A DNA stretch of 64,000 bases from Janibacter indicus. GTDB taxonomy: Bacteria; Actinomycetota; Actinomycetes; Actinomycetales; Dermatophilaceae. The stretch covers positions 1-64,000 of the forward strand of contig NZ_FWXN01000006.1 of NCBI RefSeq assembly GCF_900176385.1, read 5' to 3'. The translations under genes were made by a program, and so were the position numbers. The notes beneath the pieces were generated by a model, which saw only the letters and a program-made list of their open reading frames with translations, was not told where the DNA came from and searched no databases. How positions within the stretch are numbered: position 1 is the stretch's first letter; each line of letters begins with the position of its first letter. This document shows, piece by piece, positions 6,915 to 61,996 of this stretch.

Positions 6915-8159
6915 TCACGGGGCGGGTGAGGCGACCCGCCGCAGGGCCCCGTGGTCGATCAGGTCGGCGACCGCCGCGCCCACGATCCGGTCTGCCTCGG
7001 GGTGCTCCCCGAGTTCCGCGACGACGGTCGTGGTGAGGTCGGCAACGGTGACCGGTTCGCGCGCAGCCCGCCAGGCCACGGCCCCCGGACCGGCCAGGCG
7101 AAGGGGGCGCGGCCCGGCGAGCACCAAGACCTCGCCGTCGCAGGCGATCGCGTCCGACCACGACGCCCGGACCACCCGGGGCGGGGCCTGATCCGTGCGC
7201 ATTCCCCCGGGGCAATGCGGAGTCCGGGGGGTGGGCTCGGGTGCGGAGCCCTCGTCGTCGCGGGGCAGGCGCTCGTGCGCGGCCGGGGGCAGGTGCTCCC
7301 AGGTGGGTGCGGCGGGCGCGGCCTGCGCCAGGTGCTCCGCGACGAGCTCGTGGCAGGTGGCGACCTCGGCGTAGACGAGGCGGGCGGGGACGCCGCCGGC
7401 CGTCACGGCGCGGGCGAGCCGGTCGAGGCCGTCGTCGAGCCACCACGTCGACGAGGTCTCCGGGAGCACGGCGAGCAGCTGGTCGAGCAGGCCGACCGGC
7501 TCGATCCGCGGGTGCGCCTCGTCGGGGTCTCGGGCGAGGGTGAGCAGGGCGGCGATGCGCGGGGCGGCGGGCGTCGGCCCCAGCCCCACCTCGTCGGGCG
7601 CCGGCTCCGCCTTGTGCCACCGGTCGGCCGGGTCGATGACGAGCGAAGGGGGCTTGGGGTGCGGCGCGATCCGCCCGTCGGCGAGCAGCACGACCGACTC
7701 GTCGGTGACATAGCCCAGCCGTTCCCCGAGGACCCGCGTGGCCGTCGACTTGCCCCCTCCGGAGGGGGCGACGAGGACGACCGCACGCCCGTCGGCGTCG
7801 GTGAGCGCCGCGGCGTGCAGCAGGCTCGCGCGACCGCGCAGCCGGGTCAGGCCGAGCCGGGTGATCTCACGGGAGAGGACATAGGGCAGGCGCTCCGGGT
7901 CGCTCGCGGTGACGACCGACCCCACGACGCCCGACCCGGCCGCCTCGGTCGCGGGCAGGTCGCCGAGACCGACGCGCAGGGTCGTCGGCTCCTCGTCGAG
8001 GCGGATCGTGCCGGGGTCGATCGCGAGGTCGACGCACCGCGCCCACCGGTCACGGGTCTCGTCGGCGCGGCGGGCGTCGAGCGCGGTGAGGTCGAGGGTC
8101 CAGGCGCAGCCCATCGTCACGAGGTCGACCACCCCACCGCCAGCCACCTCGTCAACCAC
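6915..8159 (-). CDS. HPr-kinase-like P-loop protein with PqqD-like C-terminal domain
   Basis: A 414-residue two-domain protein. Residues ~85-290 resemble HPr kinase/P-loop proteins found in peptide-modification loci: LLHAAAL, then Walker A APSGGGKST (131-139) and YVTDES. Residues ~335-405 resemble a PqqD/RRE-like winged helix (LRLAGPGAVAWRAAREP...VADLIDHGAL). The linker contains PHCPGGMRT, encoded by a 20-bp palindrome (7199-7218). The GTG start at 8159 is preceded by GAAGGGAG; MGCAW 15 residues later is an alternative. RRE/HPrK pairs normally serve RiPP (for example lasso peptide) pathways, but I see no precursor, cyclase or protease nearby, so its role is open. Confidence 0.7.
   Translation of the reverse strand: MVDEVAGGGVVDLVTMGCAWTLDLTALDARRADETRDRWARCVDLAIDPGTIRLDEEPTTLRVGLGDLPATEAAGSGVVGSVVTASDPERLPYVLSREITRLGLTRLRGRASLLHAAALTDADGRAVVLVAPSGGGKSTATRVLGERLGYVTDESVVLLADGRIAPHPKPPSLVIDPADRWHKAEPAPDEVGLGPTPAAPRIAALLTLARDPDEAHPRIEPVGLLDQLLAVLPETSSTWWLDDGLDRLARAVTAGGVPARLVYAEVATCHELVAEHLAQAAPAAPTWEHLPPAAHERLPRDDEGSAPEPTPRTPHCPGGMRTDQAPPRVVRASWSDAIACDGEVLVLAGPRPLRLAGPGAVAWRAAREPVTVADLTTTVVAELGEHPEADRIVGAAVADLIDHGALRRVASPAP
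7199..7218. repeat. 20-bp palindromic repeat inside the HPrK-like gene
   Basis: GCATTCCCCCGGGGCAATGC, palindromic apart from one mismatched pair. It belongs to the same family as the intact palindromes at 44814 and 44859, and is related to the GCATTGCC...GGCAATGC units. It is read in frame and encodes part of the linker between the two domains. Confidence 0.85.
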
Positions 8160-25417: not shown

Positions 25418-26515
25418 GTGCGCGCCGTGGTCATCGAAGACGTCCGAGCCCAGCCCGAGGTCAGGGAGGTGTCGGCCCCCTTCGCCCCTCACGGTGGGGT
25501 GGTCGTCGACGTGCGGGCGACCGGCCTGTGCCGCAGCGACTGGCACGCCTGGGCCGGCCACGACGACGCAATCACCTGGCCGCACGTGCCGGGCCACGAG
25601 CTCGCCGGCGTCGTGAGCGCGGTGGGTGCCGGTGTGCAGCGGTGGCGGGTCGGCGACCGGGTGACCGTGCCCTTCGTCTGCGGCTGCGGACGGTGCTCGT
25701 GGTGCGCCGACGGCGACGCGCAGGTCTGCCCCGACCAGGAGCAGCCCGGATTCACCCACTGGGGGTCCTTCGCCGAGCAGGTCGCGCTGCACGCGGCCGA
25801 CACCAACCTCGTCGCGCTGCCGGAAGGGGTGGACTTCGCGACCGCGGCGAGCCTCGGCTGCCGCTTCGCCACCGCCTACCGGGCCCTCGTCGCCCGCGCG
25901 CGCCTGACGAAGGGGGAATGGGTCACCGTCGTCGGGGCCGGCGGCGTCGGTCTGAGTGCGGTGATGATCGCCCGGGCGCTCGGTGCGCGGGTCGTCGCGG
26001 TCGACCGCAACCCGGCGGCGCTGGCCGTGGCGGCCGAGCTCGGGGCGGAGCACACCGTGGTCGCCGGCGGTGACGTCGTCGGGGCCGGGGTCCGGGGCGG
26101 TGACGCGCGTGAGGCCGGCGCAGACGGCACGGACGTCGCGTCCACGGTCATGGAGCTGACCGGCGGCGGGGCACACGTCGCCGTCGACGCCGTCGGCAGC
26201 GAGCAGACCTGTGCCACAGCGCTGCTCAGCCTGCGGCGGCGCGGTCGGCACGTCCAGGTCGGGCTGCTGCCGCCGGTCGACGGTCACCCGCGGGTGCCGA
26301 TGGCGCGGGTCATCGGGTGGGAGATCGACGTGCTCGGCAGCCACGGCATGGCTGCCGTCGACTACCCCGGGATGCTCGCGCTCATCGAGTCGGGCGCCCT
26401 GGCGCCGCAGCGCCTCGTCGAACGGGTCGTCGGGCTCGAGGAAGCTGCGGCGCTGCTGCCCGGCTTCGACACCGCGAGCGTCGCGGGGATGACGATCATC
26501 GACCCGTCACGCTGA
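25418..26515 (+). CDS. Zinc-dependent alcohol dehydrogenase (MDR family)
   Basis: A 365-residue medium-chain dehydrogenase. The catalytic zinc ligands are in GLCRSDWH and PGHELAG, the structural zinc site is CGCGRCSWCADGDAQVC, and the Rossmann motif is GAGGVGLSAV. A Gly/Asp-rich insertion after VVAGGDVVG lengthens the cofactor domain slightly. The substrate is unknown. It starts with GTG 12 bases after the TetR gene, in the same orientation. Confidence 0.92.
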   Translation: MRAVVIEDVRAQPEVREVSAPFAPHGGVVVDVRATGLCRSDWHAWAGHDDAITWPHVPGHELAGVVSAVGAGVQRWRVGDRVTVPFVCGCGRCSWCADGDAQVCPDQEQPGFTHWGSFAEQVALHAADTNLVALPEGVDFATAASLGCRFATAYRALVARARLTKGEWVTVVGAGGVGLSAVMIARALGARVVAVDRNPAALAVAAELGAEHTVVAGGDVVGAGVRGGDAREAGADGTDVASTVMELTGGGAHVAVDAVGSEQTCATALLSLRRRGRHVQVGLLPPVDGHPRVPMARVIGWEIDVLGSHGMAAVDYPGMLALIESGALAPQRLVERVVGLEEAAALLPGFDTASVAGMTIIDPSR

Positions 26516-26584
26516 GGCGCGGACAAAATTCGCTGCGACACGGCCCCCTTCGGCCCGTAGCGTGCGCCCAACGGAAGGGGCACC

Positions 26585-27169
26585 ATGCGCACACTCACCT
26601 ACTACGTCGCGTCGACGCTCGACGGCTTCATCGCGGGACCGGACGGCGGTGACCCGAGCACCGAGGACTTCATGGCGGTGACGCCGGACCTCGTCGAGTT
26701 CATCGCGACCCACTACCCGGAGACGCTGCCGGGGCCGGCCCGCGACGCGATGGGCCTGACCGAGCCCGGCCGGGTCTTCGACACCGTGGTCGAGGGGCGA
26801 CGCTCCTACGAGATCGGGCTCGCCGCCGGCATCGACGACGCCTACCCCCACCTGCGGCACCTCGTCGTGTCGACGACGCTCGGTGAGGCGCCCGCGGCGG
26901 CGGTCGAGGTCGTCGCCGGTGACCCGCTCGCCCGGGTGCGCGAGCTCAAGGCCGAAGACGGTCTGGGCATCTGGCTCGTCGGTGGCGGCCGTCTCGCGCA
27001 CACTCTCCTGCCGGAGATCGACCGACTCGTCATCAAGCTCAACCCCTCGGTGGTCGGCTCGGGGGTCCCGCTCTTCGACGGGGGCTTCACGCCCACGCTC
27101 TTCGAGACGGTCGACGTCACCTCGCTACCCGGTGGGGTGCAGGTGATCACCTGCGAACGCCGGGGCTAG
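26585..27169 (+). CDS. Dihydrofolate reductase/RibD C-terminal family protein
   Basis: A 194-residue RibD-C/DHFR-fold protein beginning MRTLTYYVASTLDGFIAGPDG, shown in part, with GRRSYEIG, VVSTTL, IWLVGGGRLAHTLL and the terminal strand. Such proteins bind NADPH; the substrate is unclear and many are stand-alone relatives with no folate role. GGAAGGGGC upstream serves as RBS. A paired palindrome follows the stop. Confidence 0.87.
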   Translation: MRTLTYYVASTLDGFIAGPDGGDPSTEDFMAVTPDLVEFIATHYPETLPGPARDAMGLTEPGRVFDTVVEGRRSYEIGLAAGIDDAYPHLRHLVVSTTLGEAPAAAVEVVAGDPLARVRELKAEDGLGIWLVGGGRLAHTLLPEIDRLVIKLNPSVVGSGVPLFDGGFTPTLFETVDVTSLPGGVQVITCERRG

Positions 27170-27184
27170 CCCACCCCGCAACCT

Positions 27185-27245
27185 GCATTGCCCTACGGCA
27201 ATGCAGGAGCCCGGGCCCCAAAGCTGCATTGCCGTAGGGCAATGC
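27185..27245. repeat. REP-like paired palindrome, copy 1
   Basis: GCATTGCCCTACGGCAATGC (27185-27204) and its exact reverse complement GCATTGCCGTAGGGCAATGC (27226-27245), separated by 21 bases. Each unit is itself a hairpin (8-bp arms, 4-base centre), and the pair forms a larger inverted repeat. Intergenic, between two convergent genes. Confidence 0.95.
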
Positions 27246-27329
27246 GACATCACCGGCCCCCACCTCAGGGCCGCAGGGGGCATGCCGCGGCGCCCGACCC
27301 GGACGAGGGTCGGGCGCGGGGCGCGACCG

Positions 27330-28928
27330 CTACAGGTGCCAGGTCACCCCGTCGTCGCGGACCGTGCACGACAGCTCCTGCGCGTGCACCCGCGTGTGGT
27401 GCCGCTCGCACAACAACGCCGCATTACCGATGTCGGTGCGGCCACCCAACGACCAGTACTCCACGTGATGGGCATCGGTCCAGTGCGCGGGCATCGTGCA
27501 CCCCGGGAAGGTGCAGCCCCCGTCACGCAGCCACAGCAACCGCTTCTGCCCCGGGGTGAAGAAGCGCGTGGCGCGGCCGAGCTCCAGCGGCTCACCATCG
27601 CTGCCGAGCATCACGGGGATCACCCCCGCCTCACAGGCCAGCCTCCGCACGCTCGCCGGCGAGAGCACCGCCCCCGAGGCCGTGACCCCACCGGCGTGAC
27701 CGCCACCGGCCACGCCACCAGCACCCAGACCCACCGCGGCCGGGCCACCCGCACCGTCACGGTCGGGAGCGGGGTCCGTCGAGCGGTACCCGAAGGGATG
27801 CGCGTCGCTGAGGGGCACGCCCGTCGGCCCGAACGCACCGCCCGGGCGTCGTGAGCCGCACACGCCACACGTGCCATCGGTGGCGGTCAGCAGCGAGGAC
27901 ATCGAGATGGTCACCATCACCTGCGCCTTGTCACTCGTGCCCACCTCGCCCGGGCTGGACACCCCACGACCCACGATCGACACCAGGGCATCGGCACGGC
28001 GCCGCGCCGGCGGCCTCGGGTCACGCTCGCCGTCAGGACCCTTGACCGGCTTCGACAACCCCGCCACCGCCGCATCGACGATCGCCGCGCCCTCCGCATC
28101 GAGCACCAGCTTGTAGCGCGTCAACCCACTCGCATCGGTGTGACTCGTCAACGACCGCGCCGACCGCGCCCGCTCGTCATCCGCCGCCAGATCCTTGGCC
28201 GGACGCAACATCCGCGTCGTCTGCGTGATCGCCGTCGCCAGCTTGCGCTCGTCGAGCCCCGGGACCCGGCTCGAGATCCGCCCACCCGGCCCGGTGCGCA
28301 CGACCTCGTCACGGGCCGCACCGAGCAGGACCCCCAGGTCCGCCTCCAAGAGCTCGGGGTCAGCGACCCGGCACACGCCCTCGTGGAAGCGCACCAACTG
28401 ATCAGCCTTGCCCACCGACAGTTGGCCGCCCTCGACGCAGGCGAGCACCCCGGCGAGGCCGACCGGCTGCGGCCGCTCACCCCACTCCCCCGCGGCTGGC
28501 TGCGTCTCCCCGGCCACCTGCTCAGGCGCGTCCGGACGAAGGGGGGCGCCGCCCCCTTCGTCATCGTGCGTGGTGTCGACGAGCGCGGACCCGGCCCGCA
28601 GACCCGCCCTGGCCACCCGCACCACCGCAGCGACGTCCCGCACCGCCGGCCGCGGAGCGGTCCGCCCCTCGCTCACCCCGACCCAATCGGCCTCCGACCA
28701 CGACTCCTGCCCCGGCACACCCCGCGAGATGCCCTCACGCACCAACGCCACCTCGGCCGCCTCGAGCACCGCCCGGGCCCGACCGATCGCCGCCAACCCC
28801 TCCGCCAGCTCCTCGTCCGGCGCCTGCCACAGCCGCGGCGCCTCCAGCGAGGCCATCGTCATCGCGCGCACCGAGTCCCGCAGGCCCGACACGAGCCCCA
28901 GACCCTCCCACTGCGTCGCCACTGACAT
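27330..28928 (-). CDS. DUF222/13E12-repeat HNH endonuclease family protein
   Basis: A 532-residue protein of the 13E12 repeat family. DUF222 covers ~residues 20-330, followed by a Gly/Ala-rich linker and a C-terminal HNH domain with DGGCTFPGC, HWTDAHHVEYWSLGGRTD and LLCERHHTRVH (about 470-515). These proteins are multi-copy in actinobacteria and of unsettled role; nuclease activity is predicted. A near-consensus LexA box starts 4 bases upstream of the ATG at 28928, leaving no room for an RBS, so the transcript may be leaderless or the start may be the ATG at 28862 (MTMASLE). Confidence 0.88.
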   Translation of the reverse strand: MSVATQWEGLGLVSGLRDSVRAMTMASLEAPRLWQAPDEELAEGLAAIGRARAVLEAAEVALVREGISRGVPGQESWSEADWVGVSEGRTAPRPAVRDVAAVVRVARAGLRAGSALVDTTHDDEGGGAPLRPDAPEQVAGETQPAAGEWGERPQPVGLAGVLACVEGGQLSVGKADQLVRFHEGVCRVADPELLEADLGVLLGAARDEVVRTGPGGRISSRVPGLDERKLATAITQTTRMLRPAKDLAADDERARSARSLTSHTDASGLTRYKLVLDAEGAAIVDAAVAGLSKPVKGPDGERDPRPPARRRADALVSIVGRGVSSPGEVGTSDKAQVMVTISMSSLLTATDGTCGVCGSRRPGGAFGPTGVPLSDAHPFGYRSTDPAPDRDGAGGPAAVGLGAGGVAGGGHAGGVTASGAVLSPASVRRLACEAGVIPVMLGSDGEPLELGRATRFFTPGQKRLLWLRDGGCTFPGCTMPAHWTDAHHVEYWSLGGRTDIGNAALLCERHHTRVHAQELSCTVRDDGVTWHL

Positions 28929-28931
28929 GCT

Positions 28932-28947
28932 TCGATCATACGTTCGA
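28932..28947. promoter_or_regulatory. LexA-like SOS box upstream of the HNH gene
   Basis: TCGATCATACGTTCGA reads on the minus strand as TCGAACGTATGATCGA, one base away from the actinobacterial consensus TCGAAC-N4-GTTCGA. LexA sites have been reported upstream of several 13E12 genes in mycobacteria, so damage-inducible control is plausible. Confidence 0.65.
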
Positions 28948-29177
28948 AAGACCCGACTCGGGAACCCCCTGAGCCCTGTGAATTCAAGGAACTTCGCCGC
29001 TGGTCTGGGGAGAAGTCGGCCACCGGTCGGGCGGTCGAGAACGGCCTCACCCGAGCAAGGGTGCGCAGCGGCGCACCGGTGTCGACGTGGACCCGACCAC
29101 CCATCCCGTCACGCTGTCACGCCGGCGCCGCCCGGGTCGTCAGATGGGTGACAGCATCGACAGCAGAGGTGAGGGAC

Positions 29178-30017
29178 ATGGACCCAGCACAGCAGGCAGA
29201 GGACTTCGAGGCGGAGCGCCCACGGCTCGTCGGCCTGGCCACGCGCATCCTCGGCGACCACGCCGAGGCCGAGGACGTCGTTCAGCAGGCCTGGCTGCGG
29301 CTCCACGGCACGGACACCGACATCAAGTCCCTCCCGGCATGGCTCACGACGGTGACGACCCGCCTGTGCCTCGACCGGCTCAAGTCACGAGCTCCGGTGC
29401 AGCACAGCGACATCGAGCCGGGTCAGGTCACGCCGGACATCGCTGACGACGTCGTCCTCGCGGACACCGTCGGCGTGGCGCTGCAGGCCGTGATCGACCG
29501 CCTGACCCCCGGCGAGCGGGTCGCCTTCGTGCTGCACGACAGCTTCGGCTTCGACTTCGCGACGATCGCCGCGATCCTCGACACGACGCCGGCCGCGGCA
29601 CGCAAGCTCGCCTCGCGGGCCCGGGGCAAGGTGCGGGGCCAGGGGGCTGAGAGGGCAGACTGGGCGGTCGTCGACGCCTTCATGGCGGCCGCGCGCGAGG
29701 GCGACTTCGACTCCCTGCTGCGGCTGCTCGCACCAGACGCCACGATCACCGCCGACGCCGCCGCCGTCGCGAGCGGCACGCCCGAGCGGGTCGACGGGCA
29801 GCGGGAGATCGCCGAGTTCTTCAACGGCAGCGCCCACGCGGCCCTCGCCGTGCTCGTCGACGAGCGGCCCGGCGCCGCGTGGTTCCACCGCGGCGAGGCC
29901 AGGGTGCTCTTCGACTTCGACGTCGTGGACGGCGTCGTGCAGGGCATCACCTTCCGCGCCGAGCCCGAGGTGCTCGAGCGGGTGCACCGCCGCGAAGACA
30001 CCCGGCGCTCGTCCTGA
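29178..30017 (+). CDS. ECF sigma factor, SigJ/ECF41 type, with SnoaL-like C-terminal domain
   Basis: 279 residues. Sigma region 2 (LVGLATRILGDHAEAEDVVQQAWLRL) and region 4 (GERVAFVLHDSFGFDFATIAAIL, then TTPAAARKLASRAR) are followed by a ~100-residue SnoaL-like domain that replaces a separate anti-sigma factor in ECF41 proteins. The ATG at 29178 follows GAGGTGAGGG. The frame open from 29061 adds non-homologous residues. The small DUF1059-like gene lies downstream in the same direction. Confidence 0.9.
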   Translation: MDPAQQAEDFEAERPRLVGLATRILGDHAEAEDVVQQAWLRLHGTDTDIKSLPAWLTTVTTRLCLDRLKSRAPVQHSDIEPGQVTPDIADDVVLADTVGVALQAVIDRLTPGERVAFVLHDSFGFDFATIAAILDTTPAAARKLASRARGKVRGQGAERADWAVVDAFMAAAREGDFDSLLRLLAPDATITADAAAVASGTPERVDGQREIAEFFNGSAHAALAVLVDERPGAAWFHRGEARVLFDFDVVDGVVQGITFRAEPEVLERVHRREDTRRSS

Positions 30018-30093
30018 GGTGCGAGGCCCCTTGTCACATCCGCACTCCCCCGATCGTCAACCCCACGAGACCCACACACGAGAGGATCACCCC

Positions 30094-30330
30094 ATGAAGA
30101 CCATGACCTGCCAGCAGCTCGGCGGCCCCTGCGACCTCGCCCACCGCGGCGAGACGCACGACGACGTCATCAACGCCCAGGACCAGCACCTCAAGGCGAT
30201 GGAGAAGGCTGGCGACGCCGCGCACCAGCCCGCCCGCGACGAGATGAAGAAGCGCTGGCGCCGCCCCCGCAAGGCGCTCGGTTGGTACAACGAGATGAAG
30301 CAGACCTTCGCTGCCCTGCCGGAGGACTGA
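30094..30330 (+). CDS. Small DUF1059-like protein
   Basis: 78 residues. It begins MKTMTCQQLGGPCDLAHRGE, resembling the N-terminus of DUF1059 proteins (short cysteine-containing proteins), followed by a histidine- and lysine-rich helical part. An AGAGGATC RBS precedes the ATG. It follows the ECF41 gene by 76 bases and may be in its transcript or regulon. Function unknown. Confidence 0.65.
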   Translation: MKTMTCQQLGGPCDLAHRGETHDDVINAQDQHLKAMEKAGDAAHQPARDEMKKRWRRPRKALGWYNEMKQTFAALPED

Positions 30331-30351
30331 GCCGGCCCGGCCCGGCCTCCC

Positions 30352-30717
30352 TCAGGGGCGCGAGCGCCCCACCAGCACCATCGCCCCGGCGCCTCCCAGT
30401 GCGCCCACCGCGTACCAGAGGAGGTCGACCGGGGCGAAGGTCGTCCCGAGCACCCAGCGCAGCTGCGGCACCCGCGCCGGCAGACCGGTCAGCTGGGCCA
30501 GCTCGACGACCACGCACAGCGCCAGGGCCACCCCGGCCACGACGAGCGGGCGCGGCGTCTCACGACTCGGCCACAGCACGCGAAGGGAGAAGACCGCCGC
30601 CATCGCGTAGAGGACGCTGCCGGCTGCGTCGGTCCACGCCAGGTCACGAAACCCTTGCAGGGCGAGCCCACTCGCCACGACGACGGCCAGCAGGACGAGG
30701 GTGGGGAGGCGTCGCAC
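30352..30717 (-). CDS. DUF2809-like small membrane protein
   Basis: 121 residues with four hydrophobic segments. The pattern WTDAAGSVLYAMAAVF, CVVVELAQLTGLP and APVDLLWYAVGALGGAG matches DUF2809/VanZ-like small membrane proteins (E and Q in a helix, D in the next). Role unknown. It is divergent from the GMC oxidase pseudogene and convergent with the small upstream gene. Confidence 0.7.
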   Translation of the reverse strand: MRRLPTLVLLAVVVASGLALQGFRDLAWTDAAGSVLYAMAAVFSLRVLWPSRETPRPLVVAGVALALCVVVELAQLTGLPARVPQLRWVLGTTFAPVDLLWYAVGALGGAGAMVLVGRSRP

Positions 30718-30858
30718 GGGGTCACCTCAGCACGCCGTGCTGGCACCCCGCTGTGGGGCCTCCCGCTGCACGATCCGATACCCGCGAGTAGGTTCGCGCC
30801 ATCGGAACACCAATGGCGGTGCGCCCCGGGGGGTGGCACTCCGTCGAGGAGGAGCCCC

Positions 30859-32467
30859 ATGTCCGCACAGTCCACCCGCCGCGCCGTGATCGCCGGGGCA
30901 GGAGCCGCCAGCGCACTCACCGCGCTGCCGACCGCGACCGCCGACGCCAAGCACCGGCTGGCCGTACCCGAGATCTTCCGCGCCCCGAAGAAGGTCGCCT
31001 CGCACATCGACGTCATCGTCATCGGGACCGGCTTCGGAGGCAGCGTCGCCGCCCTTCGGCTCGGCCGTGCCGGCGCCACCGTCGCAATGCTCGAGCGGGG
31101 CTCCCGCTGGCCCCGTGACCCGTGGCGGCGCATCCACCCCGGCGACATGGTGCTCGACGGCCGCGGCATCTGGCACAAGCGCTCCTTCACCAACCTCGTC
31201 GGGATCCCGCAGCCTGTCGACCGCTTCGGCGGCGTGCTCGACGACACCACCTACGAGCACCTGCGGGTGTGGCGGGGCGCGGCCGTCGGCGGCGGCTCGA
31301 TCGTCTTCACCGGCGTGCTCCTCGAGCCGCCCAAGGAGTACTTCGAGCACCTCTTCGGGGACACGGTGAGCCAGAACGAGATGCACCGCACCTGGTACCC
31401 GAGGGCTCGCAGGATGCTCCGGGCCTCGCCGATGCCACGTGACATCTACGGCAGCGCGCCCTTCGGCCACTCCCGGCGCTGGGACGCGAATGTCCGCGCG
31501 GCCGGCTACACCCCCGAGCCGCTCGACGGCATCTGGGACTGGGACGTCGTGCGGGCCGAGCTGCAGGGCCGCTCGCGGCGCTCGGCCACCATCGGCGAGA
31601 GCAACTACGGCAATGCCAACGGCGCGAAGTGGGATCTCACGCTCAACTCCCTGCCGCAGGCCGAGGCCACCGGCAGGGTGACCGTGCACCACTGGCACGT
31701 CGTCGACCCGCATCGGCCAGGACGCCCGAGGCCGCTACTCCGTCGACCTGCGCGTCGTCGACCCCACGGGCGAGGTCCTCGAGACCCGGACGGTCACCTG
31801 CGACCGCCAGGTCCTCGGCGCCGGCAGCATCGGCACCTCCGAGCTGCTCGTCCGTGCCCGGGCCGAGGGCACCCTCAAACACCTGGACGACTCCGTCGGT
31901 GAGGGCTTCGGCACGAATGGTGATGCCGCGATGGTGCAGTTCATCTCGCTGTCCAAGGGGCTGTCGCAGGGATCACCCTCGGCGTCGACCACCCTCGACG
32001 CGAGCCTCGACATGCCCGCGCGGATGGAGAACTGGTACGCCCTCGGCGTCCAGGTCAACGCCGGCATCATCGGGTCGCTCGGCATGGTCATGGACCCGCA
32101 GCGCGCGAGGTTCGTCCACAGCGCCGCCAAGGACGACGTCATCGTCGACTGTCCCGAGGACGGCAACAAGGCGTCCGAGGAGGCGCTGCGCGAGATGCAG
32201 AACAAGGTCGCCAAGGCCGCGGGAGTCGGAGTGGGCGCGCCCGTCCTCGGCGTGCCGGACGTCGGGACGAGCTTCACCGCGCACCCCCTGGGCGGCGCCG
32301 TCATCGGCAGGAGCACCGACGCCTACGGCCGGGTCAAGGGCCACCCCGGTCTCTACGTCATGGACGGCGCCGGCATCCCCGGCAGCACCGGCACGGCCAA
32401 CCCCTCGCTGACCATCACCGCGCTCGCCGAGCGCAACATCGCCAAGATCATCGCCGACGGGCGGTGA
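30859..32467 (+). pseudogene. GMC/cholesterol-oxidase-like oxidoreductase, frameshifted
   Basis: The N-terminal frame has a Tat-like signal (STRRAVIAGAGAASALTAL), the FAD-binding GTGFGGSVAALRLGRAG, and ends in VHHWHVVD. The rest continues one frame over as RIGQDARGRYSVDL, LGAGSIGTSELLVRA, FTAHPLGGAVIG and GTANPSLTITALAERN up to 32467, the typical C-terminus of bacterial cholesterol oxidase-like flavoproteins. An extra C in the CCC at 31707-31709 explains the shift (GACCGC would restore VVDRIG). The ATG at 30859 has AGGAGG upstream. If the base is a sequencing error, the gene encodes an exported flavoenzyme of about 535 residues. Confidence 0.85.
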
Positions 32468-32501
32468 CCGCCTCCCGGGTCGGTCACGCTTCGCGGGTCG
32501 G

Positions 32502-33128
32502 TCACCCCGAGAGCACGGCGACGCCCGGGCCGTCGAGGTCGGCCCTCGCCACGTCACGCCCCGAGATCGCGAGCAGCAGCGCGAGGGCCGGCCCGGCGAC
32601 CTCCGGTCCGTCGCCGAGGGTGAGGTCGAGGTCGGTGGCTCGCAGCGTCACCCGCTCGGCGGTCTCGCGCGAGCCGCCGACCGAGGCCGGGGTCCGCGCC
32701 TGGTAGCGCAGCGCGCCCTCGATCGCCTCGGCGGAGTAGTCGTGCCAGATGCCGAGCGGGCGCCGGATGTCCTCGCCGTGGACGACCTCCTCGACGAGCC
32801 GGCTGTCGACGTGAGCCAGCCGGGTGGGCGGCCCGGTGCGGCGCGCAGCGACCTCACGCAGGCTGCTCAAGGTCTCGCGCGGCGTCGCCCCGCGGTGCCG
32901 GTCGACGCCCTGCTGGGTCATCCGCTCGAAGTCACCCCGGGCCCGCACCATCCCCCGCACGAGGCCGAAGGGCGTGGCCAGCGCGTTGGCGACGAGGTGC
33001 GCCGCGACGTCGTGGACGCTCCACCCCTCGCACAGCGACGCCGTGCGCCACTGCTCGTCGTCGAGCCGCTCGAGATCGGCGGCGAGCGCCGCGCGCTCCC
33101 CGTGGACGAGGTCCCACACATCGGTCAT
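32502..33128 (-). CDS. Maleylpyruvate isomerase-type mycothiol-dependent protein
   Basis: A 208-residue DinB-like/MDMPI helical protein. It begins with a conserved W-D-L-V-H helix and has LCEGWSVHDVAAHLVAN, carrying the metal-binding histidine, RLVEEVVHGEDIRRPLGI (second H), and a C-terminal SCP-like MDMPI part (ATDLDLTLGDGPEVAG). Members use mycothiol or bind metal; the reaction here is unknown. The ATG at 33128 has GGTGAGG upstream. The frame continuing to 33656 is not supported. Confidence 0.85.
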   Translation of the reverse strand: MTDVWDLVHGERAALAADLERLDDEQWRTASLCEGWSVHDVAAHLVANALATPFGLVRGMVRARGDFERMTQQGVDRHRGATPRETLSSLREVAARRTGPPTRLAHVDSRLVEEVVHGEDIRRPLGIWHDYSAEAIEGALRYQARTPASVGGSRETAERVTLRATDLDLTLGDGPEVAGPALALLLAISGRDVARADLDGPGVAVLSG

Positions 33129-33166
33129 GGCCTCACCCTGACACGGCGGTCCGACACCCCGCACGA

Positions 33167-33210
33167 CGAAGGGAGGTGCCCCGGCCGTGTCGCCGGGGCA
33201 CCTCCCTTCG
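33167..33210. terminator. Strong hairpin between two leftward genes
   Basis: 19-bp perfect arms, CGAAGGGAGGTGCCCCGGC (33167-33185) and its complement (33192-33210), with a 6-base loop. It is downstream of the proline-rich membrane protein gene. Both ends carry the CGAAGGG/CCCTTCG word. Confidence 0.75.
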
Positions 33211-33226
33211 GGGAGCGATGGATGGG

Positions 33227-34150
33227 TCAGTGGACGACAGGTCGTCCCTGGAGCACCCGCCACGTGTAGGCCGTGCTGATCGCGAAGAGCGGGGTCGTCA
33301 GGATCCCGCCGATCCCGCAGGTGAAGCACGTGATCACGAAGATCACGACGATGGCGATGAGCGCGTAGAGGAAGGTGTCGGCGAAGTTTTCCTTGACGAA
33401 GGTGAAGCTCGCCGAGACCGCCTCGGTCGCACTCTTGCCGTCGAGGACAGCGGCGTTGGTGTAGTACAGGAAGAAGAGCACGACGATCAGGCCGATGCAG
33501 AACACCAGAAGGCCGAGCAGGGAAGCGAGGAAGACGAGGATCGCGGCGAGCAGCGCCTGGCCCCACGGAACCCGGGAGAACATCGCCCCGAACTCGACGC
33601 GGCCGGTGTCGACGACGTCGAGGGCGCCGCGCAGGAGGGCGATGCCGAGGATCCACTGGATGGCGCCGCCGATCAGCTGGCCGCTCAGCTGGAGCAGGGA
33701 GGAGCCGAGCTGGCCCGCATCGCTCACCCCGTCAGGGTCCATCGGGTCGGGGTTGAAGACCTCCACCCCTCCGCTTGCCATGCCGAAGATGAAGGGGATC
33801 CCGACCGAGAGCACGGTGATGATCGCCCCCATGCCGAGGAAGGGGCCGATGTTGGCGGTGAACTTCCCCCAGGCGTACTCGATGGCGGCCATGGGGCTGT
33901 AGGGCCCCATGGCCGGCGCCGGTCCGCCACCTCCCGGCGGCACGGGCGGCATCCCGCCACCCGCGTACCCGCCGCCGTAGGGCGGCTGACCACCGGCACC
34001 CGGGGGGGGCGGTGGAGCGCCGTAGGGCTGGTTGCCACCGGGCTGGGCACCGCCGTAAGGCTGGGCGCCGCCGTAGGGCTGCCCGCCTCCCGTCGAGTCA
34101 CCGGACCCGGGAGGCGGCGGCTGCTGTGGCGGGTAGGGAGGTTGGCTCAT
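33227..34150 (-). CDS. Membrane protein with proline/glycine-rich N-terminus
   Basis: About 307 residues. Residues 1-~85 are low complexity, with PPYPPQQPPPPGSG and repeated QPYGGAQPYGGAQ elements. Then come five or six transmembrane helices (for example IITVLSVGIPFIFGMA, AAILVFLASLLGLLVFCIGLIVVLFF and AIVVIFVITCFTCGIGGI). The overall layout (Pro-rich cytoplasmic tail plus DUF4013-like membrane region) is common in actinobacteria, with no known function. I take the ATG at 34150 (MSQPPY); the ATG at 34156 is equally possible. Confidence 0.75.
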   Translation of the reverse strand: MSQPPYPPQQPPPPGSGDSTGGGQPYGGAQPYGGAQPGGNQPYGAPPPPPGAGGQPPYGGGYAGGGMPPVPPGGGGPAPAMGPYSPMAAIEYAWGKFTANIGPFLGMGAIITVLSVGIPFIFGMASGGVEVFNPDPMDPDGVSDAGQLGSSLLQLSGQLIGGAIQWILGIALLRGALDVVDTGRVEFGAMFSRVPWGQALLAAILVFLASLLGLLVFCIGLIVVLFFLYYTNAAVLDGKSATEAVSASFTFVKENFADTFLYALIAIVVIFVITCFTCGIGGILTTPLFAISTAYTWRVLQGRPVVH

Positions 34151-34247
34151 GCCCATACCCCATCGCAGATCCCCCGCCACGGCAAGCGTTTCGGAGGAAC
34201 TGGCTCGGCGTGGCTCGGGCGGGGCCCACGAGTGCCGGGGGGCCGGA

Positions 34248-35034
34248 TCACCCCTCGACGAGCAGCTCCCGGGTGACGTCGGCGATCGTCGCCGCGCCCA
34301 CCAGACCCATCGTCAGATCGAGCTCGGCGAGCACGTTGTCGATCACCGCGCTGACCCCGGCCGCACCGTCGAGCGCGAGCCCGTAGACGTGCGGCCGACC
34401 GAGCAGGCAGGCGTCGGCACCGAGGGCGAGCGCGACGAAGAGGTCCGCCCCCGAGCGCACCCCGCTGTCCATGAGCACGGTCGGCTCGGGCCCGACCGCC
34501 TCGCGCACTCGAACCAGCGCGTCGAGCGCCGCGATCGACCGGTCCACCTGTCGCCCACCGTGGTTGGAGACGACGACGGCGTCGACACCGGCGTCGAAGG
34601 CCCGCCGCGCATCGTCCTCGTGGAGGATCCCCTTGAGCACCACGGGCAGCCTGGTGCGCTCGCGCAGGGTCGCGATGTGCTCCCACGACAGCGCCGGTTG
34701 GAGTAGATGTCGAGGAAGGTCTCGACCGCCGCCCGCGGCTCCGGCGAGCGCAGGTTGTCGCGGACCCCGCCGGGGTGCTCGCGGCTCATCGAGAGCAGGG
34801 TGCCGACTCCCCCCTTCGCCGCACGGGCCGCCTGCAGGGGCTTGCGCGGGTCGATCCCGAGGGACTGCGCGGCGCGCGCCCCGGCCGAGAGCCGCTCGCG
34901 GACCAGCTCCATGAAGCGGGGGTCGGACGTGTACTGGGCGATGCCCTGGCCACGGGCGAAGGGGAGCGACCCCAGGTCGAGGTCCTGCGTACGCCACCCG
35001 AGCATCGTCGTGTCGAGGGTGACGACGAGCGCCT
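34248..35034 (-). pseudogene. FMN-dependent alpha-hydroxy acid dehydrogenase, 5'-truncated and frameshifted
   Basis: The remnant begins with [14 protein letters not shown], which is an internal strand of lactate 2-monooxygenase-like enzymes, so the N-terminal half is missing. It continues through [14 protein letters not shown] to ETFLDIYS, where the frame shifts. The next frame gives [10 protein letters not shown]-like sequence, [23 protein letters not shown] (catalytic His/Arg segment) and [10 protein letters not shown], ending at 34248. Restoring one C near 34696 (AACCGG to AACCCGG on the coding strand) joins the frames. The 5' end abuts the symporter remnant on the other strand at about 35034-35041. 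Confidence 0.85.
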
Positions 35035-35040
35035 GCCCTG

Positions 35041-35226
35041 TCCGGCTCGCTCGCCGCCTACGCCGTCTCGACGATCGTCTGCGCCGTCATGTCGGTGGCC
35101 TCCCGCGAGGAGCCCTTCGACTTCGCCCTCATCTCCCGGCGGACCGGTGACTTCACCGACGACGAGGCGGCCGACGCCCAACCCGCCGGCGACGACGACC
35201 CCGACCTCGAGCCCGCTCGCGCCTGA
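35041..35226 (+). pseudogene. C-terminal remnant of a sodium:solute symporter
   Basis: The frame from ~35029 reads [20 protein letters not shown], then FDFALISRRTGDFTDDEA and an acidic tail to the TGA at 35224-35226. This matches the last helix and cytoplasmic tail of SSS-family permeases that are followed by a 40-residue small subunit. The remaining ~450 residues are absent and their place is taken by the truncated FMN dehydrogenase on the opposite strand. The small subunit gene next to it is intact. Confidence 0.75.
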
Positions 35227-35241
35227 CCCGGAAGGATCCAC

Positions 35242-35373
35242 ATGTCGATCTCTGCACTGACCCTCTACATCCTCATCTGGCCCGCGATCGTCGCCCTGGT
35301 CCTCGCCGTCATCTGCATGGCCTTCTACAAGGAGTGGCGCGCCGCCAAGGACGAGGGGCGCCGGATCATCTGA
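35242..35373 (+). CDS. Putative transporter small subunit (43 aa)
   Basis: MSISALTLYILIWPAIVALV starts a 43-residue single-helix peptide ending FYKEWRAAKDEGRRII. Such one-helix proteins accompany actinobacterial SSS permeases (annotated as putative transporter small subunit). GAAGGATC precedes the ATG. Because the permease upstream is only a remnant, this subunit is an orphan and probably without function unless it serves another permease. Confidence 0.8.
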   Translation: MSISALTLYILIWPAIVALVLAVICMAFYKEWRAAKDEGRRII

Positions 35374-35406
35374 CCGGTGAGGTCCTCGACGCGCCACACT
35401 GGTGGC

Positions 35407-37028: not shown

Positions 37029-37033
37029 CCTGT

Positions 37034-37094
37034 GCATTGCCCTACGGCAATGCGGCCTGAGGGGTCGGGAGGCTGCATTGCCGTAGGGCAATGC
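37034..37094. repeat. REP-like paired palindrome, copy 2
   Basis: GCATTGCCCTACGGCAATGC (37034-37053) and its reverse complement (37075-37094), with a 21-base spacer unlike that of copy 1. It lies between two convergent genes, 5 bases after the lipoprotein gene. Confidence 0.95.
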
Positions 37095-37111
37095 AGAGTT
37101 GGGGCGGCCGG

Positions 37112-38350: not shown

Positions 38351-38462
38351 GGCGATCTTCCTCGCGCTCGTGGGCAGGCGCCCGGGTAGGGGTCATCGCG
38401 CATCGGCAGTGATGCGCAGCGCCGCGGAACTCGACGAGCGAGGGCGACGCACGGCAGTTATG

Positions 38463-41450: not shown

Positions 41451-43852
41451 GCGACTTCGCGATGATCACGCCCGTCGGGCGGGTGACGATCGAGCCGGTC
41501 GTCCCCGCCGAGCACATCGAGCTGCTGCACGCGTGGGTGACGCACCCGAGGTCGGCCTTCTGGGGGATGCAGGGCTTCACCCTCGAGCAGTCGCGCGCGG
41601 CCTTCGACGAGATCGACGCCGACCCGCACCACGCGGCGTGGCTCGGCCGGGTCGACGGCGTCCCGACCTTCCTCACCGAGACCTACGACCCCGTCCACTC
41701 GGTCCTTGCCACCCACTACCGCGTCGAGCCCGGGCAGCTCGGCATGCACGTGCTCGTCGCGCCGACGGACGCCCCGGTGCACGGGATGACCTCGCAGGTC
41801 TTCCGCGCGGTGATGCACTTCTGCTTCCGCGACCCCTCGGTCACCGAGGTGGTCGTCGAGCCGGACGTGCGCAACCAGGCGATCCACGCCAAGAACGCCC
41901 CCGCCGGCTTCGTCGTCGATCGCCGAATCACCTTGTCGGACAAGGAGGCCCTGCTGAGCTTCTGCACGCTCGAGGCCTTCGCCGGCAGCGAGCTCGAGCG
42001 CGGGGGTGAGCGCCTCCCTTCGCCCGACGTCGCCCACCTCGAGCCCGAGGTCATGGCCCGCGCTCACCGACACGTCGCGGCCAAGGCGCTCGGCGAGCTG
42101 ACCCACGAACGGGTGCTCGCGCCCGAGCCGACCGCGGACGGTCGGTGGACGATCTCGGCCGGGGCGGCCACGTACACCTTCGCCGCGACCCGGCACGCCC
42201 TCGAGCACTGGCGGGTCGACCCGGCGAGCATCGAGCGCACCGTCGGTGGGCAGGTCACCGAGGTCGACGCCCTCGGCGTCGTCTCCGACCTGCACGAGGT
42301 GCTCGGCATCCCCGACCACCTGCGCTCGACCTATCTCGAGGAGCTGAGCGGCACGTTGGCGAGCCTGGCGCACAAGTGGCACCACGCGCGGCACACGAGC
42401 CGCGACCTCGTCGACGCCGACTTCCAGACGATCGAGTCCGCGATGACCGAGGGCCACCCCGCCTTCATCGCCAACAACGGCCGGATCGGCTTCTCCGCCA
42501 CCGACCACGTGGCCTACTCCCCCGAGGCCGGCGCCAACGTGCGACTGGAGTGGATCGCGCTGCGGCGCAACGTCGCTCACCTCTCCTTGGCCGAGGGAAC
42601 GACGGAGGAGGGCCTCTACGCGGGCGAGCTCGACCCTGCGGACCGGGAGCGGTTCTCCCTTCGCCTGGAGATGCTGGGGCTCGACCCCGCGGACTACCTG
42701 CTCATGCCGGTCCACCCGTGGCAGTGGGACCACAAGCTCGCGGTGACCTTCGCCGCGGACATTGCCCGGCGCGATGTCGTGCACCTCGGCCCGACGGGCG
42801 ACCGCTACCGCGCGCAGCAGTCGATCCGGACCTTCTTCAACACCGACCGTCCCGAGCGGCACTACGTCAAGACGGCGCTGGCGATCCAGAACATGGGCTT
42901 CCTGCGCGGGCTCTCGCCGAAGTACATGGAGGCGACGCCGGCGATCAACGACTGGGTGGCCGACGTCGTCGCCGGCGACCGGGAGCTCGCCGACTGCGGC
43001 TTCCGCGTGCTGCGCGAGGTCGCGGCGATCGGCTACACCGGCGATGCCTACCACCGCCTCGGGGTGCCCAACCCGCACACCAAGATGGTGGCCGCACTCT
43101 GGCGCGAATCGCCCGTGCCGAAGCTCGCTGCGGGACAACGGCTCCAGTCCCTCACCGGGCTGCTGCATCGCGACGCCGAGGGCGCCGCGCTCATCACCGA
43201 GCTCATCGCGGCGAGCCCCATCGGCGCGCGCGAGTGGGTGCGGCGGATGCTGCGCGCCTACCTGCGGCCCGTCGTCCACTGCCTCGGCGTGCACGACCTG
43301 GCCTTCATGCCCCACGGCGAAAACCTCATCCTCGTGCTCGAGGACCACGTGCCCACCGGCGTCTTCATGAAGGACATCGGCGAAGAGGTCGTCGTCATGT
43401 CCGACCGGGAGCTGCCGCCCGAGGTCGAGCGCATCCGGCACGTCCTCGACCCGCAGGTGCAGTCGTTGTCGGTGCTCACCGACGTGATCGACGGGGTGCT
43501 GCGCTTCGTCGCCGAGATCCTCGCCGACGACGAGGTGCTCACCGGTGAGGACTTCTGGGCGCTCGTCGCCGAGTGCATCGCCGCGCACGCGGCCGACCAC
43601 CCGCGGGCCGCGCGGCTGGACCTGCTGCGGGAGAGCTTCGAGCACTCCTGCCTCAACCGGTTGCAGCTGCGCAACACCCTGCAGATGGTCGACCTCACCG
43701 ACCCCGAGGGCTCGCTCATCCGGGTCGGCGACCTCGCCAACCCACTCCACGCGCATTGCCCTACGGCAATGCACAGTCTTGACGTCGAAGGACTGCATTG
43801 CCGTAGGGCAATGCAGAGTTCTGGGGCCGGCGAAGGGGGCGTGGCCGGGTGA
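41447..43852 (+). CDS. Fused siderophore acyltransferase and NIS synthetase (DesC-DesD-like)
   Basis: 801 residues. Residues ~10-190 are a GNAT-type siderophore acetyltransferase (Acetyltransf_8 pattern: HAWVTHPRSAFWGM, EPDVRNQAIHAKN). Residues ~230-770 are an IucA/IucC NIS synthetase with HPAFIANNGRIGFS, HPWQWDHK, RTFFNT and KTALAIQNMGFLRGLSP, plus an FhuF-like tail. The N-terminal part acylates the N-hydroxydiamine, and the C-terminal part joins hydroxamate units using ATP. In Streptomyces these are separate proteins (DesC, DesD). The last ~30 residues are coded by the paired palindrome at 43753-43814. It overlaps the acylase gene by GTGA. Confidence 0.93.
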   Translation: MSDFAMITPVGRVTIEPVVPAEHIELLHAWVTHPRSAFWGMQGFTLEQSRAAFDEIDADPHHAAWLGRVDGVPTFLTETYDPVHSVLATHYRVEPGQLGMHVLVAPTDAPVHGMTSQVFRAVMHFCFRDPSVTEVVVEPDVRNQAIHAKNAPAGFVVDRRITLSDKEALLSFCTLEAFAGSELERGGERLPSPDVAHLEPEVMARAHRHVAAKALGELTHERVLAPEPTADGRWTISAGAATYTFAATRHALEHWRVDPASIERTVGGQVTEVDALGVVSDLHEVLGIPDHLRSTYLEELSGTLASLAHKWHHARHTSRDLVDADFQTIESAMTEGHPAFIANNGRIGFSATDHVAYSPEAGANVRLEWIALRRNVAHLSLAEGTTEEGLYAGELDPADRERFSLRLEMLGLDPADYLLMPVHPWQWDHKLAVTFAADIARRDVVHLGPTGDRYRAQQSIRTFFNTDRPERHYVKTALAIQNMGFLRGLSPKYMEATPAINDWVADVVAGDRELADCGFRVLREVAAIGYTGDAYHRLGVPNPHTKMVAALWRESPVPKLAAGQRLQSLTGLLHRDAEGAALITELIAASPIGAREWVRRMLRAYLRPVVHCLGVHDLAFMPHGENLILVLEDHVPTGVFMKDIGEEVVVMSDRELPPEVERIRHVLDPQVQSLSVLTDVIDGVLRFVAEILADDEVLTGEDFWALVAECIAAHAADHPRAARLDLLRESFEHSCLNRLQLRNTLQMVDLTDPEGSLIRVGDLANPLHAHCPTAMHSLDVEGLHCRRAMQSSGAGEGGVAG
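43753..43814. repeat. REP-like paired palindrome, copy 3, inside the coding end of the fusion gene
   Basis: GCATTGCCCTACGGCAATGC (43753-43772) and its reverse complement (43795-43814), with a 22-base spacer. Unlike copies 1, 2 and 4 it is translated, giving HCPTAMHSLDVEGLHCRRAM at the C-terminus. Confidence 0.95.
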
Positions 43853-45750
43853 GCCGACGCTGGCGGGTGGAGCGGGATGCCCTCGGCATCCCGCTCTGCT
43901 GGGGGGAGACGCTCAACGACCTCGCCTACGCGCAGGGGCGCTCGGCGGCGATCGACCGGGCCTGGCAGATCGAGGTCGAGCGGCGGCGGTCCGAGGCGAC
44001 CTCGGCGACGCTGCTCGGACCGTCCGACTGGGACGACTTCGCCGAGCGGGCCGACCTGGCCGGCATCGCGCGGGCCGCGGTCGCGGGTCTCGACGACGAG
44101 ACGCTTGCCTGGGTGGACGCCTACGTCTCCGGGGTCAACGACGGTCTGGACGAAGGGGGTTCCCGCGCACCGGAGTTCGCCGCCACCGGCACGGAGCCGG
44201 AGCGGTGGGAGCGCTGGTCGCCGGCCGGGGTCTTCCTCGTCCAGCACGTGCTCATGGGCAACTTCGGGCACCTGCTGTGGCGCCGCCACGTCCGCGCGCA
44301 GCTCGGCGAGGTCGCGCTCGACCTGCTGAGCCACGAGGGCGTGCCGCTCGGAGGCAGCAATGCCTGGGCGCTCACCGGGTCGCGCACTGCCACGGGCGCG
44401 CCGATGATCGCCGCCGATCCGCACCGCGTGCTCGAGGCCCCCGGGATCTACCAGCAGGTGCGTCTGGCCACGCCCGACATCGACGTGTCCGGGCTCGCCT
44501 TCGCGGGTGTGCCGGGGGTGCCGCACTTCGGTCACGCCGGCTCGGTCGCGTGGGCGGTGACCCATGCGATGGCGGACTACCAGCAGATCGCCCCTGACGC
44601 GGACCCTGTTGTCCCCCACCCGATCTCGCCCGCGGGCGTCGACGGCGACATCGGGCTGGCCACGATGCGCCGACTGCTCCTGGCGCGGACGGTCGACGAC
44701 GTCGACATGGCCCTCGACGGCTGGGTCGAGCCGGTCAACGCCGTGGTCATCGCCGGCGCCGACGGTCGGGTCCGCGAGCGCGTCGCCGGCCGCCTCGTCA
44801 CCATCGAGAGTTCGCATTCCCCCGGGGGAATGCAGATTCAGGTGGGGACGCCGAGTTCGCATTCCCCCGGGGGAATGCAGATTCAGGTGGGGACGGTGGC
44901 GGCGCCGGCGGCCCGTCGGGACCTGGCGGACGGCGAGGTCGTCGTGCACGCCAACGACCGGCGCGCCTCGGTCGCAATGCTCGGCGAGGAGTTCGCCGCG
45001 CCGCACCGAGCGCACCGGATCACCGAGCTCCTCGGCGGGCGCCCGACCTGGGACGTCGCCGGCCTCGCGGAGATCCAGACCGACACCCGGCTCGGCTCCT
45101 GGCCGACCTTCCAGACTCTCCTCGGCGGGGTCGCGGCCACCGGCCCCGCCGAGGAGCTGCGCCTGTGCCTGCTCGCCTGGGACGGGCACATGGACGCCGG
45201 CAGCCACGCCGCGGCCCTCTTCGCGGCCTGGCGCACCGAGCTCGTCCTCGCCGTCGCGGCCCACCCCCTGCTGGCCCCGATCCACGAACCCCGCGGTCTC
45301 GCAGCGCTATTCGCGCCCTGGGTCGACCCCGTCGCCCGGGTCGGCGCCGGCATCGAGCGGATCGTGCACGTCGGGCCCGACTGGGGGCTGCCGCTCGACG
45401 AGCTCGCCGTACAGGCCCTCGTGCGCGTCGCGCAGGCCCCTGCCGACGACCGGACGTGGGGGGAGCGGCATGTCGCCCCCTTCGTCCGGGCGGCGCACAC
45501 CGGCACGCCACCCAGCGGGCCGCTCGGCGGCGACGGCGACTGCGTGCTGGCCACGGCCGCCGCGCCCGGCCTGAGCGACCTGTGCTGGCGCGGGCCGGCC
45601 GCCCGACTCGTGTGGTCGCTCGACGGACCGAGCTCGTGGGTCGTGCCGCTCGGCGCCGACGGGCCAGCCGACTCACCGCACGCCCACGACCAGCACGACA
45701 CCTGGTGCGCGGGCGACCTGCACACCCTGACCGACAAGGAGACGACATGA
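43849..45750 (+). CDS. Penicillin-acylase-family Ntn hydrolase in the siderophore operon
   Basis: 633 residues. The auto-processing site is LGGSNAWAL with the predicted nucleophile Ser170, followed by DPHRVLEAPGIYQQVRL and HAGSVAWAVTHAMAD, as in penicillin G acylase and PvdQ. The family cleaves amide-linked acyl groups. No clear signal peptide is seen, so a cytoplasmic role is likely. Two identical 15-residue units (SSHSPGGMQIQVGTP, about 321-350) come from 45-bp direct repeats and sit in the beta-chain region. It overlaps its neighbours by 4 bases each way. In pyoverdine biosynthesis PvdQ removes an acyl group; a similar maturation or recycling job here is inference. Confidence 0.85.
   Translation: MSRRWRVERDALGIPLCWGETLNDLAYAQGRSAAIDRAWQIEVERRRSEATSATLLGPSDWDDFAERADLAGIARAAVAGLDDETLAWVDAYVSGVNDGLDEGGSRAPEFAATGTEPERWERWSPAGVFLVQHVLMGNFGHLLWRRHVRAQLGEVALDLLSHEGVPLGGSNAWALTGSRTATGAPMIAADPHRVLEAPGIYQQVRLATPDIDVSGLAFAGVPGVPHFGHAGSVAWAVTHAMADYQQIAPDADPVVPHPISPAGVDGDIGLATMRRLLLARTVDDVDMALDGWVEPVNAVVIAGADGRVRERVAGRLVTIESSHSPGGMQIQVGTPSSHSPGGMQIQVGTVAAPAARRDLADGEVVVHANDRRASVAMLGEEFAAPHRAHRITELLGGRPTWDVAGLAEIQTDTRLGSWPTFQTLLGGVAATGPAEELRLCLLAWDGHMDAGSHAAALFAAWRTELVLAVAAHPLLAPIHEPRGLAALFAPWVDPVARVGAGIERIVHVGPDWGLPLDELAVQALVRVAQAPADDRTWGERHVAPFVRAAHTGTPPSGPLGGDGDCVLATAAAPGLSDLCWRGPAARLVWSLDGPSSWVVPLGADGPADSPHAHDQHDTWCAGDLHTLTDKETT
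44809..44895. repeat. Two tandem 45-bp repeats with a perfect 20-bp palindrome, in frame
   Basis: GCATTCCCCCGGGGGAATGC at 44814-44833 and at 44859-44878, each within AGTTC...AGATTCAGGTGGGGACG. The two copies are identical over ~42 bases with period 45, a multiple of 3, so the acylase reading frame is kept. The palindrome is the same family as at 7199. Confidence 0.95.
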
Positions 45751-61944: not shown

Positions 61945-61996
61945 GCATTGCCCTACGGCAATGCCGTGTGGAGTCCGCATTGCCGTAGGGCAATGC
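61945..61996. repeat. REP-like paired palindrome, copy 4
   Basis: GCATTGCCCTACGGCAATGC (61945-61964) and its reverse complement (61977-61996), with only a 12-base spacer against 21-22 in the other copies. It lies between the divergent MobA-like and TetR genes. Confidence 0.95.

Follow-up and report, generated by a model that had tools for sequence, protein, structure and literature searches.

The 64,000-nucleotide stretch of Janibacter indicus DNA analyzed here (the window) holds members of a palindromic repeat family of the REP kind, to which it adds quantized spacing between neighboring copies and cores that change at places shared between relatives; tests for a REP tag beside 212 core sides and for a RAYT transposase in 16 genus genomes came out negative. 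Repeats that resemble REPs are generally attributed to RAYT transposases. To our knowledge, quantized spacing and core change at shared places lie outside the usual description of REPs. With confidence evenly balanced, we favor a reading in which a REP-like family lacks the usual transposase and its site is read as duplex DNA by a predicted dimeric protein.

A scan of the window for the 20-mer and its reverse complement (GCATTGCCCTACGGCAATGC / GCATTGCCGTAGGGCAATGC) gave four pairs of exact matches with no mismatch, whereas 100 shuffled window sequences contained zero exact 20-mer pairs. The first pair (27185..27204, forward strand, center CTAC; 27226..27245, reverse strand, center GTAG, 41 bp from its partner) is flanked by convergent genes, one with a RibD_C domain and one of the DUF222-HNH type. 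In the second, the forward copy (37034..37053, center CTAC) follows a stop codon by 5 bp and 17 bp separate the reverse copy (37075..37094, center GTAG) from a convergent MFS transporter gene, at the latter's 3′ end. The third begins with a forward copy (43753..43772, center CTAC) in the 3′ end of an IucA/IucC-FhuF gene, and the spacer separating it from its reverse-strand partner (43795..43814, center GTAG) belongs to a TTGACGTCGA-like subfamily. The fourth (61945..61964, forward, center CTAC; 61977..61996, reverse, center GTAG, 32 bp from its partner) lies between divergent genes for a MobA-like NTP transferase and a TetR-family regulator, and its palindrome is lengthened by flanks GGAGTCC...GGACTCC. 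Spacers are 21, 21, 22 and 12 bp, respectively. A previous sequence-only reading had reported these invariant pairs, the same spacer lengths and the same kinds of context (two convergent, one divergent, one within a gene end), all of which were recovered here, the contexts with a simple gene caller (27185 and 37034 convergent, 61945 divergent, 43753 within a gene end). Its figure of four holds for inverted pairs, the actual number of copies being eight; its view that only the palindromes are conserved was too strong, given the symmetric flank preference and the related 22-bp spacers described below.

Related palindromes, rarer than the main type and missing from that reading's listing, were also found (strand not assigned). 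A minor type, GCATTCCCCCGGGGGAATGC, occurs at 44814..44833 and again at 44859..44878 in a penicillin-amidase-like gene, and a single sequence match to GCATTCCCCCGGGGCAATGC lies at 7199..7218. The minor-type copies are each contained in one of two identical 45-bp (15-codon) tandem units (44808-44895) and the gene stays open, an in-gene insertion that we take to be reminiscent of Rickettsia palindromic elements. At the place of 44814, one palindrome with other cores is present in the relatives designated G063 and G058, and none in G054, G059, G061, G062 or G055. Repeats of other kinds in the window include three tandem 53-bp units (GGTCTCGAGGCTCGTCGC...) at 2346-2504, with related GTCTCGAGGCTCG repeats near the site in another fetched stretch (L037); a partly tandem family of CGTCGCACCTCAGCCAGCGGG and TTCGAGGCTCCTTCGTCGCACCTCA at 47023-47100, 41343-41405 and 47915-47939; and, at 53822-53874 and 55799-55904, a perfect 26-bp inverted repeat (AAACTGCCCCTTCGCAAGGGTTT...) together with its second copy, of 80 nt and 86% identical, 2 kb off. 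The DUF222-HNH gene adjoining the first pair (27330-28922) resembles sequences that are multi-copy in several congeners, both with and without the palindromes.

Counted genome-wide, the pattern GCATTGCC-NTAN-GGCAATGC gave 106 copies in the 3.42-Mb own genome and none for the reversed control, so the 20-mer is far from absent outside the window. All 106 sites are contained in the window and 48 stretches taken around the listed copies. Among 112 copies (allowing up to 2 mismatches) the core is almost unvaried except at the two center bases. As in the general definition of a REP, a short palindrome is thus present in many copies and mostly outside called genes (53 of 58 places). Inverted pairs of the BIME/REPIN-like form CTAC-GTAG are the commonest arrangement (19 places); single exact copies occur at 17, and direct arrays contain up to four copies. 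Each core is set in flanks reading roughly CnnGAnnCY...RGnnTCnnG, with symmetric preference at 1, 2, 5, 6 and 9 bases from its edge. Palindromy continues beyond the core with a mean run of 2.07, versus 1.02 in shuffled pairings. Spacer sequences are mostly unlike each other, yet this flank motif is common to them. Eight of the 18 spacers of 22 bp (one per place), that of 43753 included, form one related family, which suggests that pairs may have been dispersed as a unit.

Placement relative to genes was determined using a purpose-written simple codon-usage caller. In the own genome, 32 of the 58 places are convergent, 18 tandem and 3 divergent, and the remaining 5 fall within called genes; intergenic sequence in the window amounts to 1287 bases convergent, 1387 tandem and 2059 divergent. 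Corresponding counts for G063 are 26 convergent, 26 tandem, 6 divergent, 11 inside genes and 1 at an edge. A gene 3′ end lies inside or within 30 bp of the repeats at 44 of the 58 own places, and a gene start within 30 bp at 4. Reading past the stop codon on the sense strand, the first palindrome has the center CTAC in 51 cases, GTAG in 7 and another in 2, a single palindrome between convergent genes being scored once per gene end; at 9 further own gene ends the element's own TAG serves as the stop codon. Polarity is unclear in G060 (10 forward, 11 reverse) and G062 (13 forward, 8 reverse, 1 other), and sense polarity as a genus-wide rule was rejected on these counts. Intrinsic terminators, scored as a G+C-rich stem plus a T-run, were not found in 26500-45500, the stretch scanned, and shuffled sequences gave a mean of 2.7.

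Start-to-start distances between neighboring copies were measured in the frame GCANNNCCNNNNGGNNNTGC (n = 54). Values in the own genome were 31 bp (9), 32 (17), 41 (5), 42 (20), 43 (1), 45 (1) and 84 (1), such that 51 of the 54 are 31-32 or 41-42 bp; the 45-bp distance is that of the in-gene minor-type pair and corresponds to 15 codons. Pooling of the own genome, G063 and other genomes (n = 139, of which 34 were taken by eye from listings) gave a vector strength of 0.86 at 10.5 bp with a phase of approximately 0 (own 0.94, G063 0.87, others 0.75). Note that the period is only loosely fixed, pooled strengths being 0.83 at 10 bp and 0.84 at 11 bp, and that a minority of spacings is out of phase (38 and 48 bp in G063, 36 and 55 bp elsewhere). 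Neighbors are mostly about 3 or 4 helical turns apart, relatives with other cores included. At the eight places with exactly two sites each in both the own genome and G063 (places 3, 6, 9, 12, 13, 14, 20 and 22), spacing is the same in four, differs by 1 bp in one and by 11 bp in three. Because spacers are partly related, part of the spacing rule could descend from a few ancestral pairs.

The family is, within the searches made, confined to part of the genus Janibacter. The GCATTGCC-NTAN-GGCAATGC pattern was present in 7 of 186 family genomes, namely the window's own and six others of the same genus. When the exact 20-mer was compared with the genome_contigs collection, from which records near the window's genome are possibly absent, Janibacter anophelis NBRC 107843 was the sole match, with 10 stretches. 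Sites of the form GCATTN10AATGC number 116 in the own genome, 142 in G062, 88 in G066, 58 in G054, 46 in G058, 25 in G063, 15 in G060, 6 in G061 and 2 in G059, with 0-1 in G052, G053, G055, G056, G057, G064 and G065. A broader frame, GCANNNCCNTNNGGNNNTGC, gave 199 forward matches in G060, 154 in G063 and 51 in G065, controls giving 8 or fewer; these three genomes therefore have other cores. The same frame barely exceeded control in G061 (16) and G059 (9), and was no higher than control in G052, G053, G055, G056, G057 and G064. Samples of G057, G064 and G055, congeners without the family, contained no recurring 8+8 palindrome (444.5 kb). Among the matches listed, the core is GCARRACCCTAGGGTYYTGC in G063, GCACGACCTTAAGGAGATGC in G060 and GCATTTCCCTAGGGAAATGC in G058, mostly GCATTGCC-ATAG/CTAG/CTAT-GGCAATGC in G062, and centered on CTAG or TTAA in several relatives; the G060 core is asymmetric, its two arms being unlike each other. 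Carrier genomes have in common the frame GCA-NNN-CC-nTAn-GG-NNN-TGC, in which the NNN arms and the center are species-specific.

Orthologous places were compared between the own genome and its closest relative, G063. Of 60 own places with the alignment pattern, 24 aligned, 1 was inconsistent, 3 matched on one side only, and the remaining 32 found no counterpart among the G063 stretches taken. Palindromes are present in both genomes at all 24 aligned places, largely because G063 stretches were taken only at G063 sites and at the window's places, which biases the shared fraction upwards. At 19 of the 24, G063 holds only other cores; at the other 5 (places 2, 9, 15, 22 and 24) one or more of its cores resemble the own type, the center mostly being GTTG or CAAC. 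Six aligned places (3, 4, 8, 12, 16 and 17) have a changed core with at least one adjoining flank collinear. Five of these six pass an offset test (identity 0.83-0.97, offset 0 or -1), and place 16 is collinear through 16+16 identical flanking bases, its 30-base offset score being just 0.53. At many other aligned places the own and G063 palindromes are offset by 5-33 bp, which looks like separate insertions into the same gap. The 43753 place carries palindromes with other cores in G063, G061, G062 and G060, those of G063, G062 and G060 belonging to types common in each genome, and a decayed palindrome in G066. G055, which is without the family, has no element at three aligned places (37034, 43753 and 44814). 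In G058, G054 and G059 (stretches L106, L108 and L110), the 43753 place is occupied by a different, CTTCGCGACCTCCTCAGGGAACG-like repeat, tandem in G059. Judging from these alignments, gene-end gaps may be common landing places for several repeat families.

The sequence-only reading had taken the pairs for REP/BIME-type mobile elements and pointed to a REP-associated transposase gene. The anatomy agrees with it (palindrome, 106 copies, inverted pairs, extragenic position); the agent does not, as the TnpA-REP / Y1 transposase family (Pfam PF01797) was matched neither in the window genome nor in the 16 genus genomes searched, while the positive control matched 5 of 14 named genomes, E. coli included. 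Mobility of the family is supported only indirectly: its presence in the genus is patchy, one related composite subfamily occurs at 8 places, and the three aligned G055 places are empty. No protein family predicted in the own-genome stretches lies beside more than 3 sites; the largest adjacent cluster (11 members, 3 adjacent to sites) is presumably, from its look, an ABC-transporter-type group. ParB_N gave one strong match per genome in 16 of 16, carriers or not, with no correlation, and weak extra matches in G000 (below cut-off), G055, G060 and G065. No window match reached the gathering score in Rfam. The own-type pattern occurred in 0 viral contigs and the G063-type pattern in 2, about the chance expectation by our own estimate, and one 101-bp query gave no plasmid match; a phage or plasmid origin was rejected on these results. 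One pair lies upstream of the TetR-family gene at 62077, and for that reason an operator serving its autoregulation was considered; the idea was dropped because only 3 of the 58 places are divergent and, among the matches listed, no G063 site lies near the expected position. The titles and abstract beginnings surveyed contained no account of these repeats.

The likeness to GTAG REPs and BIMEs is based in part on the BIMEs of E. coli. GTAG REPs share with the Janibacter family palindromes of 20-40 bp, more than 100 copies, inverted pairs, location at 3′ ends and in convergent gaps, species-specific classes and class replacement, and they supply TAG stop codons (PMC3733652 and PMC3686654, in their available text); according to the latter, REP classes were partly replaced after an “orthoswitch”. 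The Janibacter family differs in that a Y1 transposase was not found in the genomes searched and the stem has no adjoining GTAG tag, and in its spacing steps of about a helical turn and its cores, which at one and the same position differ between relatives. CGTC REPs, as the available text of PMC3733652 describes them, have 8-bp stems, 4-nt loops in family 1, no dedicated transposase and mostly head-to-head dimers, and convergent genes have REPs less than 20 bp from their 3′ ends; stem and loop sizes, the predominance of head-to-head dimers and position near 3′ ends are alike in Janibacter, where likewise a dedicated transposase was not found in the genomes searched. Unlike theirs, the Janibacter core sides carry a CGTC (TGTC/CCTC) tag at -4..-1 in just 4 of 212 cases, and that source lists five phyla, the word “Actinobacteria” being absent from its main text. 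REPINs of Pseudomonas fluorescens likewise consist of two inverted palindromes with a length-constrained spacer and compensatory changes, the GI type having a single 71-bp spacing and a link to RAYTs (PMC3116915, available text), whereas the Janibacter pairs use chiefly two spacings, which differ by roughly a helical turn, and the genomes searched yielded no RAYT.

These comparisons bear on the proposal, prompted by the sequence-only reading, that the repeats are classical REPs or REPINs mobilized in trans by a Y1 RAYT transposase. The way the elements are built, their number, their pairing in inverted orientation and their location at gene ends all fit it, and so does the use of the element's TAG as stop at 9 gene ends, as for GTAG REPs (PMC3733652, available text). 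It is already contradicted by the PF01797 result (0 of 16 genomes, control 5 of 14), by the location of GTAG in the center of the own core, with CTAG or TTAA in the centers of several relatives among the matches listed, and by the tags: of 212 core sides, none has GTAG/GGAG at -4..-1 and 21 have it anywhere within -10..-1. We regard it as very unlikely, and a rescue would come only from a divergent RAYT that escapes the Pfam model. Still less credible, to the point of being nearly dismissed, is a DNA-uptake-type half-site signal that falls into inverted pairs by chance, although inverted pairs at gene ends and species dialects would suit one. A genome-wide count of the half-site GCATTGCCSTA gave 219 in the own genome, and of the 215 located in the stretches taken, 209 lie within palindromes; a DNA uptake sequence was ruled out on this near-confinement. 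ParB parS and Noc sites are near-invariant long palindromes with origin-side density. It is improbable, in our judgment, that the repeats are immobile sites of such a chromosome-organizing or regulatory protein (ParB/Noc/MatP-like, or a transcription-factor regulon), even though the long, near-invariant palindrome and quantized spacing are of that kind and the G063 places, by quarter from the presumed origin, number at least 27, 19, 17 and 10 among the matches listed (the origin was taken to be near position 0 because of the ParB gene, and the count for the first quarter omits its final 0.23 Mb). Against it, the repeats are placed at gene ends and not starts, are patchy in the genus with six congeners at control level, and have species-specific cores that differ between close relatives, and ParB content is independent of carrier status.

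The remaining choice is between recognition of the duplex and folding of the transcript. Were the palindromes RNA 3′-end hairpins, acting as two-way terminators or mRNA stabilizers with transcript pairing decisive, their position at 3′ ends and in convergent gaps and the 51:7 sense polarity of the own genome would be accounted for, and all 10 chosen stretches did fold into strong stems (z of -5.2 to -14.6 versus shuffles). Flanks covary in a stem-like manner both in the own genome, as its palindromic runs of 2.07 versus 1.02 indicate, and in G063, at positions -1, -2, -3, -6, -7, -10 and -13, and the longest stems past the core reach 15 bp in the own genome and 23 bp in G063, where two stems exceed 20 bp; this favors a hairpin role and counts against the duplex reading. 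Most variation within the G063 core falls at positions 4-5 and 16-17. The arms vary at positions 4-5 mostly between A and G, and 28% of 109 copies match at both, approximately the 26% obtained with shuffled arms. Such independence fits duplex half-sites better than a hairpin, as do the unlike arms of G060, although that asymmetry also counts against a simple homodimer. Hairpins, moreover, do not predict spacing steps of about one helical turn, the 16 near-invariant core bases go beyond what a stem requires, and T-run terminators were not found in 26500-45500. The confinement of half-sites to palindromes together with the phasing favors duplex-site recognition, and we consider the RNA hairpins unlikely, though well worth keeping in view.

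In the preferred, duplex-site reading, each 20-mer would be the center of a longer symmetric site, bound as double-stranded DNA by a putative dimer, and adjacent dimers would lie on the same face of the helix. Copies and composite pairs would be dispersed by a putative agent, and gene ends would tolerate the palindromes and perhaps benefit from them as two-way punctuation between converging transcripts. A bolder version, which we consider rather doubtful, has a fast-evolving DNA-binding factor mark 3′ ends, its dimers stacked on one face at 3- or 4-turn spacing as a two-way roadblock; a shift in its specificity would then lead to about a hundred sites being rewritten in place by copying of the core only.

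The family raises the question of what spreads and homogenizes palindromes without a RAYT, and whether gene ends in these bacteria may be punctuated by a bound protein. The places at which the core has changed between collinear flanks are natural allele pairs with which such punctuation could be tested.
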